Assembly: GCF_013705725.1 (NCBI RefSeq)
Contig: NZ_CP055481.1
Span: forward strand, 2,914,001 to 2,978,000
Length of the DNA: 64,000 bases
From: Klebsiella sp. RHBSTW-00484
GTDB lineage: Bacteria > Pseudomonadota > Gammaproteobacteria > Enterobacterales > Enterobacteriaceae
Direction: 5' to 3'
Shown here: one piece after another, positions 46,768 through 51,365 of the stretch
Position numbering within the stretch: position 1 is the first letter of the stretch
Layout: each line of letters opens with the position of its first letter
Made by a program: the position numbers and the translations under genes
The notes under the pieces: generated by a model
Database searches by the model: none
The model's input: only the letters and a program-made list of their open reading frames with translations
What the model was told of the DNA's origin: nothing

Positions 46768-48423
46768 GTGAAACAGAAACTTATTTCGACGGGAACGCTA
46801 ACGGCGCTGCTGGTGCTGGTGGCGTTACCGCTCTTTTTTATCGTCCTACAGGCGATATTCCCCCAGTTTAGCGCCGGTTCGCTGGGCGGCGCGTTTAGCG
46901 GCGTATCGACGTTGATTGCCGACCCGCAACTGCCGACGATGCTTGGCGGCACCCTATGGGTGGCCTGCGGCGTGGCGCTGATGAGCGTGATTATCGGTTT
47001 GCCGCTGGGCGTGCTGCGCGGATTGTTTAATTTACCGTTACCCCGCCTGTGGGATCTGCTATTTCTGATCCCCTTTCTTACGCCACCGTATATTGCCGCG
47101 CTGTCATGGATGCTGGTACTGCAAAGCAACGGCTATCTGCAACAGCTGACCGGCTGGGATCTGAACGATCTGCTGTTCAGCCGCAGCGGGATTGTGCTGG
47201 TGATGACCCTCAACATCTTCCCGGTAGTCTATTTTGCGGTCTCGCGCAGCCTGCTGGCGAGCGGTCAGCGGCTGGCGATAGTGGCGCGGGTGCACGGAGC
47301 CAGCGCCTGGCGGGCGTTCTGGCATATCACGCTGCCGATGCTTTCTCCGGCGCTGGCGGCGGGGATGCTGCTGGCGTTTACCCTCGCCATTGAAGAGTAC
47401 GGCGTTCCGGCGGCGCTCGGTTCACGGGCGGGGCTGGTGATGCTCACCGTCGGGATAGAGAAAAAACTCGCCGACTGGCCTATCGACCTGCCGGGCGCGT
47501 CGCTGCTGTCATTGCTGCTGATTGCGGTAGCGCTGCTGGCCTGGTGGCTGCAAAAGCGGCTGGTTGGCGATAAAGAAGTGACCAGCGTAACCGGCAAGCC
47601 GGGAGAGAATAGCGGGGCGGATTTAGGCTGGCTGACGCTTCCGGCGGTGTTGTTTATGGCGGGCATCGGCGGGCTGGCTGTGCTGCTGCCGGGGGCATCG
47701 ATGGTGCTGACCAGCCTGATGGGGACGCTGTCGGGTGGTATTCATGCCGACAATTTTACCTTCAGGCATTTCGAAGCGCTGTTTGCCCAGCAGGGCGATG
47801 CGCTGTCGGCGCTGGGGACCAGCCTTTCGCTGGCGCTGGCTTCAGCGTTGATCGTCGGTTTGGTCGGTATGCTCGCCGCCTGGCTGGTATTGGTGCAGAA
47901 AATCAGGGGGAGTGCGATTGTCGATGCATTATCGCTGATGCCAGCAGCGCTGCCGGGCGTGGTGGTCGGCGTTGGGCTGATTCTGCTGTGGAATCAGCCG
48001 TTCTGGCCGGTTTCTCCCTATAACACCTGGTTTATGCTGCTGCTTTCTTATTGCTGTCTGCTGCTACCGTGGCCGGTGCGCTATGTCGGCAGCGCGCTGC
48101 GCCAACTCGGTAATAATCTTGAACCGGCGGCGCGGGTGCATGGCGCTACGCCATTGCAGGCGCTACGTTTGATCGTTCTGCCGCTGGTGTTTCCGGCGCA
48201 GCTGGCGGCGATGCTGATGGTGTTTGCCGTGGCTTCCCGCGAGCTCGTGACCTCGCTGCTGCTGGCTCCAGCGGGGACGCAAACCGTGGCGGTGTTTATC
48301 TGGCGTCAGTTTGAGCAGGGCTCGGTAGGGCAAGGGATGGCAATGGCTTCCCTGACGCTATTTACTGGCCTGGCTTTAATGCTCAGCGCGCTGGCGTTGA
48401 TGCAGCGGGGCACGCGTGAATAA
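46768..48423 (+). CDS. Two-domain ABC permease (FbpB/AfuB type)
   Basis: A 551-residue inner-membrane permease with about 12 helices formed by two fused permease halves. Each half contains an EAA-type loop: ARVHGASAWRAFWHITLPMLSPALAAG near residue 173 and ARVHGATPLQALRLIVLPLVFPAQLAA near 460. It completes the 44925-46591 transporter. Start follows CAGGAAAAGACC. The REP hairpin in front may tune its expression. Confidence 0.85.
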   Translation: MKQKLISTGTLTALLVLVALPLFFIVLQAIFPQFSAGSLGGAFSGVSTLIADPQLPTMLGGTLWVACGVALMSVIIGLPLGVLRGLFNLPLPRLWDLLFLIPFLTPPYIAALSWMLVLQSNGYLQQLTGWDLNDLLFSRSGIVLVMTLNIFPVVYFAVSRSLLASGQRLAIVARVHGASAWRAFWHITLPMLSPALAAGMLLAFTLAIEEYGVPAALGSRAGLVMLTVGIEKKLADWPIDLPGASLLSLLLIAVALLAWWLQKRLVGDKEVTSVTGKPGENSGADLGWLTLPAVLFMAGIGGLAVLLPGASMVLTSLMGTLSGGIHADNFTFRHFEALFAQQGDALSALGTSLSLALASALIVGLVGMLAAWLVLVQKIRGSAIVDALSLMPAALPGVVVGVGLILLWNQPFWPVSPYNTWFMLLLSYCCLLLPWPVRYVGSALRQLGNNLEPAARVHGATPLQALRLIVLPLVFPAQLAAMLMVFAVASRELVTSLLLAPAGTQTVAVFIWRQFEQGSVGQGMAMASLTLFTGLALMLSALALMQRGTRE

Positions 48424-48499
48424 AGACGAACGCACGAAATCGCTGGTCTGGTGGGAAAAACAGGCTATAAATATCGGACACCGATTGCTGGAGGCATTG

Positions 48500-49345
48500 A
48501 TGAGTCCATTTTTAAGCGCCTATTTTTCTCGTCTGGGCTGGACGGGAACCCCTGAAGTATCGATTAACACCTTGCGCGAACTGCATATCCACCATAACGG
48601 CGCGATCCCGTTTGAGAACCTGGATGTGTTGCTGCCCAGAGAGATGCATCTCGACGATCGGACGCTGGAAGATAAGCTGATTCATGGCCGTCGCGGCGGT
48701 TACTGCTTTGAACAAAATGGTCTGCTGGAGAGAGCGCTGCGCGAGATTGGCTTTAACGTGCGCAGCCTGCTGGGACGGGTGGTGTTGGCGAACCCGCCGC
48801 ATATGCCGCCGCGCACTCATCGGCTGCTGCTGGTGGAAGTTGAGGGCGAACGCTGGATTGCCGATGTCGGCTTTGGCGGTCAGACCCTGACCGCGCCGAT
48901 TCGGCTGCTGGCGGATGTTGAACAAACCACGCCGCACGGTGAGTATCGCCTGATTTATGAAGGGGATGAATGGGCGCTGCAGTTCAGCCATCACGGTCAC
49001 TGGCAGTCGATGTACCATTTTGATTTGGGTCGTCAGTACGCTTCTGACTACGTGATGGGCAATTTCTGGTCGGCGCACTGGCCGCAGTCGCACTTCCGTC
49101 ACCATCTGCTGATGTGTCGCCATTTACCGGACGGAGGCAAGATGACGTTAACCAATTTCCACTTTACCCATTGGGATAAAAACCATGTGGTCGAAAAGCT
49201 GGACTTACCGGACGTTCCCGCGCTGTACGAAGCGTTGCAAACACGTTTCGGCCTCGGCGTTGACGATGCGAAATATGGCTTTAGCGAAGCGGAGTTAGCG
49301 GCGGTGATGGCGGCGTTTGATACGCATCCGGAGGCGGGGAAGTAG
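48500..49345 (+). CDS. nhoA: Arylamine N-acetyltransferase NhoA
   Basis: About 281 residues from ATG 48500 behind GGAGGC, the same length as E. coli NhoA; an upstream in-frame ATG at 48416 overlaps the permease and is unlikely. The NAT triad is visible: C69 in RRGGYCFEQNG, H107 in PRTHRLLLVE and D122 in IADVGFGG. It acetylates arylamines and N-hydroxyarylamines with acetyl-CoA. Its position next to yddH and the narZ operon fits E. coli synteny. Confidence 0.93.
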   Translation: MSPFLSAYFSRLGWTGTPEVSINTLRELHIHHNGAIPFENLDVLLPREMHLDDRTLEDKLIHGRRGGYCFEQNGLLERALREIGFNVRSLLGRVVLANPPHMPPRTHRLLLVEVEGERWIADVGFGGQTLTAPIRLLADVEQTTPHGEYRLIYEGDEWALQFSHHGHWQSMYHFDLGRQYASDYVMGNFWSAHWPQSHFRHHLLMCRHLPDGGKMTLTNFHFTHWDKNHVVEKLDLPDVPALYEALQTRFGLGVDDAKYGFSEAELAAVMAAFDTHPEAGK

Positions 49346-49360
49346 GTTTTGACGTTTTAC

Positions 49361-49375
49361 CCTCACCCTAACCCT
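49361..49375. repeat. Left half of an interrupted REP-like repeat (IS target, left)
   Basis: Reads CCTCACCCTAACCCT and joins with CTCCCTGGAAGGGAGAGGGG at 50576-50594 when the IS is removed. The element was cut by the IS at its CT dinucleotide. The inverted partner lies at 50634-50677. Confidence 0.75.
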
Positions 49376-49384
49376 TATGTCTTG

Positions 49385-49570
49385 ACCTTCTCCGTTCCGG
49401 CGGAGAAGATCCCCGACTGATCATCGGGAGGTTACCGGTGAGCATCACCCAGCCCTGGAGCCCCTGAGCCCGCGGGAGAGATTATGCCCCGGTAACCTGT
49501 TTCCCTGTCGCCTCAAGACCGAACGGTATCCTGTGCCCTGAGCACCCACATATAAGGATGGTCCGGCGAT
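49385..49570 (+). ncRNA. Predicted bridge RNA of the IS110 element
   Basis: Three folds can be drawn: a 5' hairpin CTTCTCCG/CGGAGAAG (49387-49408); a target domain closed by AGGTTACCGG/CCGGTAACCT (49429-49438 with 49489-49498); and a donor domain closed by TCGCC/GGCGA and GACC/GGTC (49508-49520 with 49560-49569) with a GTGC/GCAC apical hairpin (49533-49545). Target guides CAGCCCT (49450-49456) and GGGAGAG (49474-49480), donor guides ACGGTATC (49523-49530) and ATATAAG (49550-49556). RNA boundaries are approximate. Confidence 0.7.
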
Positions 49571-49595
49571 AATATTCATAAGGTTACGGAGTACC

Positions 49596-50558
49596 ATGAT
49601 GAATCTTGTCCCTGTCGGCGTTGATATCGCCAAACTCAAATTCGACGTTGCTGTCCTGCTGCCAAACCAGAAGTACAAAACCAAAAAATTCGCCAATACC
49701 CCAGCCGGATGCCGCGAATTTCTGAACTGGCTGGCGCGTTTTGGTCACTGTCATGTCTGCATGGAGGCAACAGGTTGCTACAGCACTGAACTGGCCACCC
49801 TGCTGGCCGATAATGGCTGCTGCGTCAGCCTTGAAAACCCGGCACGTATCCATGCGTTCGCAAACACTGAACTGACCCGCAATAAAACGGACAAAAGCGA
49901 CGCGGCGCTGATAGCGCGCTACTGCGCTCTGTATCAGCCGGCCCCCTGGCATCCTGCGCCGCTGAGCGAACGACAACTGACGGCTCTGGTACGCCACCTG
50001 CGTAACCTGGAAGAGATGCGTCAGATGGAGATGAACCGCCTTGAGGCAGCAGATGAAGTCATCGTTCCTTCCCTGAATGAACACGTTACGATGCTGGATG
50101 AGCTGATTGAAGAAACCCGCAATAAAATCAACCGGCATATCGATGATAACCCAGACCTGAAGCGGGACCGGGAGCTACTGAAAAGTATCCCCGGAATAGG
50201 AGACATGCTGAGTGTGAGCCTGCTGGCGTTCGCAGGAAATCTGCGACGGTTCAGCAACAGCAAGGCACTGGTGGCGTATGCTGGTTTGAATCCTCGTCGT
50301 TGTGAGTCAGGGATGTGGAAAGGGAAAAGCAGGCTGTCGAAAGTGGGCCATGCAGAGCTGCGTAGCGCACTGTATATGCCAGCGGTAGTGGCAGGAAGAT
50401 GCAATAAGGTGGTGAAAAACCTGATGGAAAGGCTTGCAGCCCGGGGTAAGACAGGGAAAGAGCGAGTGTGTGCAGGAATGAGGAAATTACTGCAGCTGGC
50501 TTATGGTGTGGTGAAATCCGGGCATGAATTTAACGCTGAAATACCACTTGCAGGATAA
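49596..50558 (+). CDS. IS110-family transposase (bridge-RNA-guided recombinase type)
   Basis: A 320-residue recombinase. The N-terminal DEDD/RuvC-like domain has VGVDIAKLKFDVAV, CMEATGCY and NKTDKSDAALIARYC, supplying the four acids. The C-terminal Transposase_20-type domain has SIPGIGDMLSVSLLAF and GLNPRRCESGMWKGKSRLSK, whose serine is the likely nucleophile. It has no frameshift, so the element seems active. It starts at the first of two adjacent ATG codons after GTTACGGAGTACC. Confidence 0.93.
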   Translation: MMNLVPVGVDIAKLKFDVAVLLPNQKYKTKKFANTPAGCREFLNWLARFGHCHVCMEATGCYSTELATLLADNGCCVSLENPARIHAFANTELTRNKTDKSDAALIARYCALYQPAPWHPAPLSERQLTALVRHLRNLEEMRQMEMNRLEAADEVIVPSLNEHVTMLDELIEETRNKINRHIDDNPDLKRDRELLKSIPGIGDMLSVSLLAFAGNLRRFSNSKALVAYAGLNPRRCESGMWKGKSRLSKVGHAELRSALYMPAVVAGRCNKVVKNLMERLAARGKTGKERVCAGMRKLLQLAYGVVKSGHEFNAEIPLAG

Positions 50559-50575
50559 CCGGCAAGACGGTATCT

Positions 50576-50677
50576 CTCCCTGGAAGGGAGAGGGGATCGT
50601 ACGGTGCGGAGTTTGAGTTCTGCGCCGGTCTGCCTTTCTCCCTCTCCCCGCATTTGGGGAGAGGGTCGGGGTGAGGG
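50576..50677. repeat. REP-like repeat remainder (IS target, right) and its inverted partner
   Basis: Contains CTCCCTGGAAGGGAGAGGGG (50576-50595) and the inverted unit CCTCTCCCCGCATTTGGGGA (50641-50660) with GAGAGGGTCGGGGTGAGG (50660-50677). Together with 49361-49375 they form a two-hairpin BIME-like element between nhoA and narV. The second hairpin may also act at the end of the narZYWV transcript. Confidence 0.72.
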
Positions 50678-50684
50678 GAAAGGC

Positions 50685-51365
50685 TCAACGCCTTGAACGT
50701 ACCACCTGATAGCGGCGGGTGAAATACTCCACCGGGGCGCTCCAGACGTGAACCAGGCGGGTGAAGGGAAATATCAGGAAGATGGTCATCCCAAGCACCA
50801 AATGGACACGATAAATCCACGCCACGCCGTCAAGATGCGCCGACGCGCCGCCGTGGAAAGTCACGACCGCCTGCGCCCAGTCCACCAGTTTTAGCATTTC
50901 GCTACCGTCCGGGTGCTGCGCGGAGAACGGAATCGTCGTCAGGCCGAGCGCGCACTGAATCAGCAGAATGCTCAGAATCAGGATATCCGCGGTAGTGGAG
51001 GTGGCGCGAATGCGCGGATTCGTCAGACGACGAACCAGCAGCCCGATACCGCCGACCAACGTCAGCACACCGCAAACCCCGCCAAGGATCATCGCCATCA
51101 GCTGCTTCTGCGACATCGGCAGGAACCATGAGTAGACCCAGTGTGGCGTCAACATGCCGAAGAGATGGCCGAAGAAGATCCCGAGAATGCCGATATGGAA
51201 CAGGTTCGACCAAAGCACCATCCCGCGCTTATCCAGCATCTGGCTTGACGAGGCGCGCCAGGTGTACTGTCCGTAATCGTAGCGCAGCCAACTGCCGATA
51301 AGGAAAACCGTGCCGCAGAGATAGGGGTAAATATCGTAAAAGAAGACGTTAAGGTACTGTATCAT
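50685..51365 (-). CDS. narV: Respiratory nitrate reductase 2 gamma subunit NarV
   Basis: A 226-residue membrane cytochrome b with five helices; histidines in [18 protein letters not shown] near residues 57-66 and in YRVHLVLG and TRLVHVW near 187-205 bind the two b haems. It takes electrons from quinol to NarY. It overlaps narW by ATGA and is the last gene of narZYWV. Length equals that of E. coli NarV. Confidence 0.93.

Follow-up and report, generated by a model that had tools for sequence, protein, structure and literature searches.

The element described here lies in the window, by which we mean the whole stretch of 64,000 nucleotides of Klebsiella sp. RHBSTW-00484 DNA that was analysed. 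Between two convergent open frames, 48416-49345 on the plus strand and 50685-51365 on the minus strand, which by eye we take to resemble an arylamine N-acetyltransferase and NarI, we found a 1202-bp element of the IS110 family on the plus strand (49374-50575), in which one gene lies between a left non-coding end of 222 nt and a right end of 17 nt. Its main parts are the following.

49374..50575, plus strand: whole IS110-family element including both CT cores, delimited by the ends common to ten identical copies and by an empty site with a single CT
49374..49375, plus strand: left copy of the CT core, from the sequence and the empty site
50574..50575, plus strand: right copy of the CT core, from the sequence and the empty site
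49596..50558, plus strand: recombinase gene, 320 amino acids with DEDD and serine domains, from domain, family-model and structure matches and from its catalytic residues

An earlier first-pass annotation of this DNA had called the stretch an IS110 element, and the encoded recombinase bears this out. It matches both PF01548 (DEDD; 93.3 bits, cut-off 29) and PF02371 (86.6 bits, cut-off 21.3), scores 229 bits against the NCBIfam model 'IS110 family RNA-guided transposase' (cut-off 140) and has the solved IS621 protein as its top structure match; its protein identity to E. coli copies annotated as IS621 is 47.4%. The residues D11, E60, D102, D105 and S241, given as catalytic for IS621 in PMC11208158, align with D10, E57, D99, D102 and S238, so that all five are kept under a correspondence that presumes a two-residue numbering offset of the solved chain. 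The same product also resembles, weakly, the TIGR-Tas endonuclease model of NCBIfam, at 29.9 bits against a cut-off of 100. Scanning genome contigs with this single protein returned four distant relatives, and the same scan of viral contigs returned none; DNA searches found no match to the element in near plasmids, nor in near or distant E. coli genomes.

Searching the window's genome, we recovered ten full-length copies of the element, all 100% identical. Every one of them is inserted at the same CT of a BoxC repeat, CCCTCACCC-NNN-CC/CT/CTCCC (slashes set off the core), and the CTCCC is followed on its 3' side by a short loop, beyond which stands the returning arm, GGGAGAGGG or a closely similar sequence. 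The ten flanks thereby conform to the BoxC pattern, CCCTCACCC-NNN-CCCTCTCCC, loop, GGGAGAGGG, as given in Table 1 of PMC4666352, a paper that describes BoxC as a palindromic, structure-prone repeat and as an intrastrand-triplex motif, and whose table distinguishes type A (TTA) from type B (CCG, CTG or TCG), read on the other strand. At the occupied sites the variable triplet NNN is TAA five times, CGG four times and CAG once. None of the copies is an IS621-like insertion in a REP; all ten are in BoxC. In the window, the two parts of the interrupted repeat are as follows.

49360..49373, plus strand: left part of the interrupted BoxC (left target side), CCCTCACCCTAACC, from the sequence, the repeat being identified through PMC4666352
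50576..50595, plus strand: right part of the interrupted BoxC (right target side), CTCCCTGGAAGGGAGAGGGG, from the sequence, the repeat being identified through PMC4666352

We also observed a second BoxC, vacant and of the CGA spelling on the minus strand, at 50637-50680, about 60 bases to the right of the element.

The orthologous locus in a sister species (G767) is empty. It carries an uninterrupted BoxC, CCCTCACCCTTACC-CT-CTCCCTGGAAGGGAGAGG, with one CT, up to which the left flank of the window copy aligns and from which the right flank aligns. Because the flanks meet at this single CT, we conclude that insertion involves a 2-base core and leaves the target otherwise unchanged. The first-pass annotation had held that removal of the element restores a repeat arm around a CT core, which is what this site displays; of the junction that it had reconstructed, the single-CT BoxC stands at this one orthologous site, and is spelled there CCCTTACC-CT-CTCCC, one letter off the proposed CCCTAACC. 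Across a survey of 20 genomes of the genus, a copy appears only in the window's own, among the matches listed; the top match of element plus flanks in each of the remaining 19 is a piece of flank, none better than E 2.9e-88 among the matches listed.

In the predicted fold of the left end (-79.7 kcal/mol, z -2.92, with 0 of 200 shuffles as stable), the 5' stem-loop comes first, then another hairpin, and after these the two stems that carry the target loop and the donor loop. This is the IS621 order that had been read from the letters by the first-pass annotation. The features of this predicted bridge RNA, including its four guides, are these.

49384..49411, plus strand: 5' stem-loop of the predicted bridge RNA, from the fold, with 6 of 11 helix pairs changed on both sides
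49412..49428, plus strand: second hairpin, CCCCGACTGATCATCGG-type and kept in relatives, from the fold and the alignment
49429..49500, plus strand: target-binding stem and loop, from the fold, with 9 of 15 stem pairs changed on both sides
49448..49456, plus strand: left target guide (LTG) CCCAGCCCT, 9/9 at locus L001, 8/9 at CGG sites, 7/9 plus a wobble at TAA sites
49474..49480, plus strand: right target guide (RTG) GGGAGAG, fully paired (7/7) with CTCTCCC in each of the ten sites
49505..49571, plus strand: donor-binding stem and loop, from the fold and conserved letters
49523..49530, plus strand: left donor guide (LDG) ACGGTATC, the same letters as in the right end at 50567-50574, kept in relatives
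49550..49556, plus strand: right donor guide (RDG) ATATAAG, complementary to the left end CTTATGT apart from one G-U wobble

The fold is kept in nine left ends, those of the element and of eight relatives: 94.7% of the alignment cells are paired, compared with 34-45% when the partner columns are slid. Both sides have changed in 17 of the 53 pairs (500 shuffles average 9.2 and none reaches 17), a covariation score that is favoured because the structure was derived from the same nine-sequence alignment. A covariance search had been proposed in the first-pass annotation; as Rfam had no hit between 48900 and 51200 at E values up to 1, we built our own model from the nine left ends. Of 392 genomes of the family, 14, the window's own included, contain matches to it at E 1e-6 or better, and an E. 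coli element annotated as IS621 (L055) is also recovered through its left end, at 23.7 bits and an E value of 5.5e-5 under rough calibration.

The guides were already recognized in the first-pass annotation, and all four of its readings hold when the letters are read directly. GGGAGAG is the exact reverse complement of CTCTCCC at 50574-50580. CAGCCCT, which occupies 49450-49456 in the target loop, had been said to match the left target with one wobble and one mismatch, and this is correct for the window copy, where TAA faces CAG; over its full length the LTG is exact at one of the ten native sites (L001, CAG), has one mismatch at the four CGG sites, and has one mismatch and one wobble at the five TAA sites. 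The donor loop had been credited with a copy of the right end, ACGGTATC, and with ATATAAG, one wobble from the complement of the left end; both guides of this loop do match the element's ends. We note that immediately after the LDG, at 49531, the sequence reads C where the T of the core would be expected, as it does in two relatives (G337 and G104), and that the core T is kept at this place in five of nine aligned relatives.

Shuffling the left end 20000 times produces GGGAGAG in 238 cases, so that a single match of this kind is only moderately unlikely. That the guide match goes beyond chance follows from the ten copies, the empty site and the agreement of guides with flanks in relatives. Within this genome, a preference of the ten insertions for better-matching BoxC spellings is not visible: the mean number of triplet mismatches is 0.90 at occupied and 0.96 at vacant repeats, and CAG or CAA is found at 1 of 10 occupied and 5 of 68 vacant sites.

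For the element and its relatives we compiled a guide table of 72 rows, from 75 model matches of which two 45-base partial matches (L031, L168) and one with its 5' end cut off (L044) were left out; it holds 25 distinct LTGs and 46 distinct pairs of LTG and flank. At the seven non-core bases LTG and flank agree at a mean of 5.33 positions, against 2.43 when permuted (maximum 3.47 in 20000 permutations), and at 5.30 against 2.40 when the ten copies of this element are removed. The RTG, over ten groups, agrees with its flank at 3.52 of 5 bases against 1.49 permuted (0 of 20000 as high), in a test where one locus (L011) was shifted one base by hand, a shift that the LTG test does not include. Position by position, LTG agreement is 35/46 next to the core, 19/46 at the tenth base and 11/46 at the eleventh, a drop in line with the eight or nine bases given for IS110 left guides in section 6 of PMC11208160.

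Guides and flanks change together among the relatives, a check that the first-pass annotation had put forward for other copies, and they do so down to the single letter. The elements of G065 and G188 differ at two of 220 comparable bases, one lying in the LTG and the other in the RTG; the difference in the LTG (ATCCACCCT / ATCCGCCCT) recurs in the flank. Similarly, two copies in G133 (L125 and L138) have one difference in 160 bases, which is a letter of the LTG, and the flank has changed alike (GCCGCCCCT / GTCGCCCCT). The copies in G188 and G133 end at contig ends before their right targets, and these co-changes are seen at the left flank.

Agreement is not uniform, with 20 of the 46 pairs below 5/7 bases and 7 of the 25 guides lacking any pair at 5 or more. 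The first-pass annotation had regarded the same loop at unrelated targets as contrary to its reading; this is so at 0 of 10 sites in the present genome, which upholds that reading, and some copies of relatives do stand at poorly matching left flanks, which speaks against it. The guide of the Fukatsuia elements, TTGCGCCCT, matches poorly at six of eight distinct left flanks; three of these poor flanks lie inside another element copy and four share one right flank with well-matched copies, and flank exchange between copies could therefore explain them. Another guide, ACCCTCCCT of G104, matches poorly at five of eight flanks, at two of which the right target is still 7/7. At three loci of the same genome (L019, L042, L121) the RTG matches 7/7 but the LTG only 2/7, as if the right guide were dominant or the left flanks had been exchanged. 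In two distant rows (L130, L131), AAGGAGAG is common to guide and flank, two bases out of register.

Some further loci deserve mention in their own right. In G147 a relative is found within copies of itself: at L031, L161 and L168 one copy lies in the left end of another. At L031 and L168 the interruption is located at, or immediately behind, the target guide of the outer copy, a point that resembles half a target because the target guide carries both guide and core. A distant relative in a Gallionellaceae MAG (L011, 2718-3974) matches its right target with the RTG at 8/8, and its donor loop and right end are almost unchanged.

If the two ends of the element are joined, a promoter is predicted across them, with these boxes.

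50548..50553, plus strand: -35-like box TTGCAG, part of a motif (TTGNNN-17-TATCTT) present in 14 of 16 distinct joined ends and at the same offset in 12
50571..50575, plus strand: -10-like box TATCTT, its first five letters, the sixth being supplied by 49376 once the element is circular

The motif is absent at the left junction in 10 of 10 integrated copies of the element. Its boxes are weak, and we treat the promoter as a prediction because they match the consensus here at 7 of 12 letters. For IS621, expression of the RNA from a joined-end promoter after excision is reported in section 5 of PMC11208160.

From these observations, we hypothesize, with a probability of roughly 93%, that this is an IS110-family insertion sequence present as ten identical copies at one point of BoxC, whose left end is a predicted bridge RNA guiding the recombinase to that repeat. 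Since the predicted guide RNA matches BoxC, the element likely picks its landing sites by RNA pairing, like IS621. The recombinase would likely release the element in circular form at both CT cores; the joined ends would create the promoter TTGCAG-17-TATCTT, lacking in integrated copies, from which the left-end RNA and, after it, the recombinase would be expressed; and the DEDD/serine active site would exchange strands at CT, as has been shown for IS621.

One could suppose instead that targeting is a matter of protein only, the recombinase or folded BoxC DNA (hairpin or triplex) selecting the site and the RNA matches being coincidence or a captured piece of BoxC. The palindromic, structure-prone nature of BoxC (PMC4666352), the inexact guide at nine of the ten sites and the fact that GGGAGAG alone is not rare by chance would all suit such a mechanism. 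We regard it as very improbable, however, since relatives that share the RNA scaffold but carry different guides are found at correspondingly different sequences, and the single-letter co-changes of guide and flank speak against it as well. Just as improbable, in our judgement, is a bridge-RNA element that was once active and is now inactive, its ten copies being fixed remnants from which neither RNA nor recombinase is made. Weak promoter boxes and integrated copies without the junction promoter are what one would expect of it, but the ten copies are 100% identical, the gene is open with its catalytic residues kept, and the other 19 sampled genomes of the genus have no near-full copy among the matches listed; together these facts suggest a recent burst.

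We give the least credence of all to a spread of copies by homologous recombination or duplication between BoxC repeats, without guided insertion. Identical copies and abundant BoxC are compatible with it, but the repeat around the copies is short and differs from site to site (TAA, CGG or CAG, with different loops), all junctions share one exact position, with a CT on either end of the element, the empty site has one CT, and flanks shared beyond BoxC and varying junctions are absent in the ten copies.

The spelling of the guide itself may carry information on where the element has been. If one G-T wobble is allowed, its triplet CAG has no mismatch to BoxC of the CAA or CAG spelling. Vacant sites of the exact spelling (CACCCNNNCCCTCTCCC) number 68 in the window's genome and 267 in G337 (the 6.0-Mb genome that contains the closest relative). 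The 68 comprise 27 TAA, 21 CGG, 8 CGA, 4 CAA, 4 TAG, 2 CGC, 1 CAG and 1 AAA, and CAA/CAG thus has a share of 5/68; the first 100 of the 267 include 45 CAA, 40 TAA, 7 CAG and no CGG, a CAA/CAG share of 52; and in G078, of the same genus as G337, the 33 vacant sites include 13 CAA, 10 TAA, 6 TAG, 1 CAG and no CGG (14/33). Over 256 sampled genomes of the family, CAA/CAG occurs in 35, CGG in 37 and TAA in 43. CAA/CAG repeats are also common in some other genera (45 sites in G087, 39 in G144), for which reason we leave the source host unfixed. Tentatively, and with considerable doubt, we suggest that the guide dates from an earlier host, as a kind of fossil, the element having recently jumped between genera and then undergone a burst on sites with one mismatch; the ten identical copies and the lack of a near-full copy in the other 19 genomes of the genus, among the matches listed, are the grounds for a jump and burst of recent date. 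The plain alternative is that the guide is a compromise, with a single mismatch to TAA and likewise to CGG. If the fossil reading is true, the letters of IS110 guides record the repeat families, and hence the hosts, on which an element has lived.

The bridge-RNA mechanism itself has been known since 2024, and these recent RNAs are being turned into genome-engineering tools. What is added here is the target repeat BoxC, natural data on tolerance from ten copies, and single-letter co-changes that make the retargeting of such elements testable. The element amounts to a natural experiment: the same guide, unchanged, goes with ten insertions in three target spellings, in a genome where 68 sites of the exact spelling are vacant, and a sister element with a different guide on the same repeat family contributes as well. 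It yields tolerance data for mismatches of the left guide alongside a full 7-base match of the right guide at 10 of 10 sites. BoxC joins REP as a dispersed docking site in enterobacteria. Among the titles and abstracts listed in our searches there was no report of BoxC as an IS110 target, and 'boxc' has 0 occurrences in the main text of PMC11208160. We consider the element a well-supported addition to the IS110 elements with bridge RNAs, having BoxC as its target and a predicted transcription and activity.

Among known systems, the seekRNA elements of the IS1111 group and ISEc21 are alike in that a non-coding RNA with two target-matching stretches guides insertion (PMC11187229). According to the same paper, the essential non-coding region of ISEc11 (IS1111) is downstream of the gene, whereas here it is upstream; with 222 nt upstream of the gene and 17 nt downstream, the element does not have the IS1111-group layout. 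The IS110 elements ISPa11, ISPpu9, ISPpu10 and ISRm19 have all their counted copies in palindromic REP repeats (6/6, 7/7, 7/7 and 4/4, respectively; PMC1525189), and differ in their hosts and in using REP instead of BoxC, a term that counts of the text of that paper did not find named.

IS621 of E. coli shares with the present element a DEDD and serine recombinase, a long left end 5' of the gene, the CT core, a 5' stem-loop followed by target and donor loops in the same order and a target in a dispersed palindromic repeat (PMC11208160, PMC11208158). The sigma-70-like promoter across the joined ends of IS621 would have a counterpart here in the weak boxes predicted above. The two differ in protein sequence (about 47% identity), in their guides, in the repeat targeted (BoxC here, REP for IS621) and in the RTG, which pairs over 7 bases at the ten sites here and over 4 in IS621 (PMC11208160, PMC11208158). 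Nearer in sequence are the IS110 elements of Candidatus Fukatsuia symbiotica plasmids, with 61% protein identity and the same RNA scaffold; they have the LTG TTGCGCCCT, flanks that match it at some copies, and no BoxC target. Closest of all is the element of G337, from another genus of the same family, which has 78% DNA identity, the same scaffold and the same RTG GGGAGAG, but the LTG CCTAACCCT instead of CCCAGCCCT, and whose six copies are all in BoxC, at four TAA and two CAA sites.
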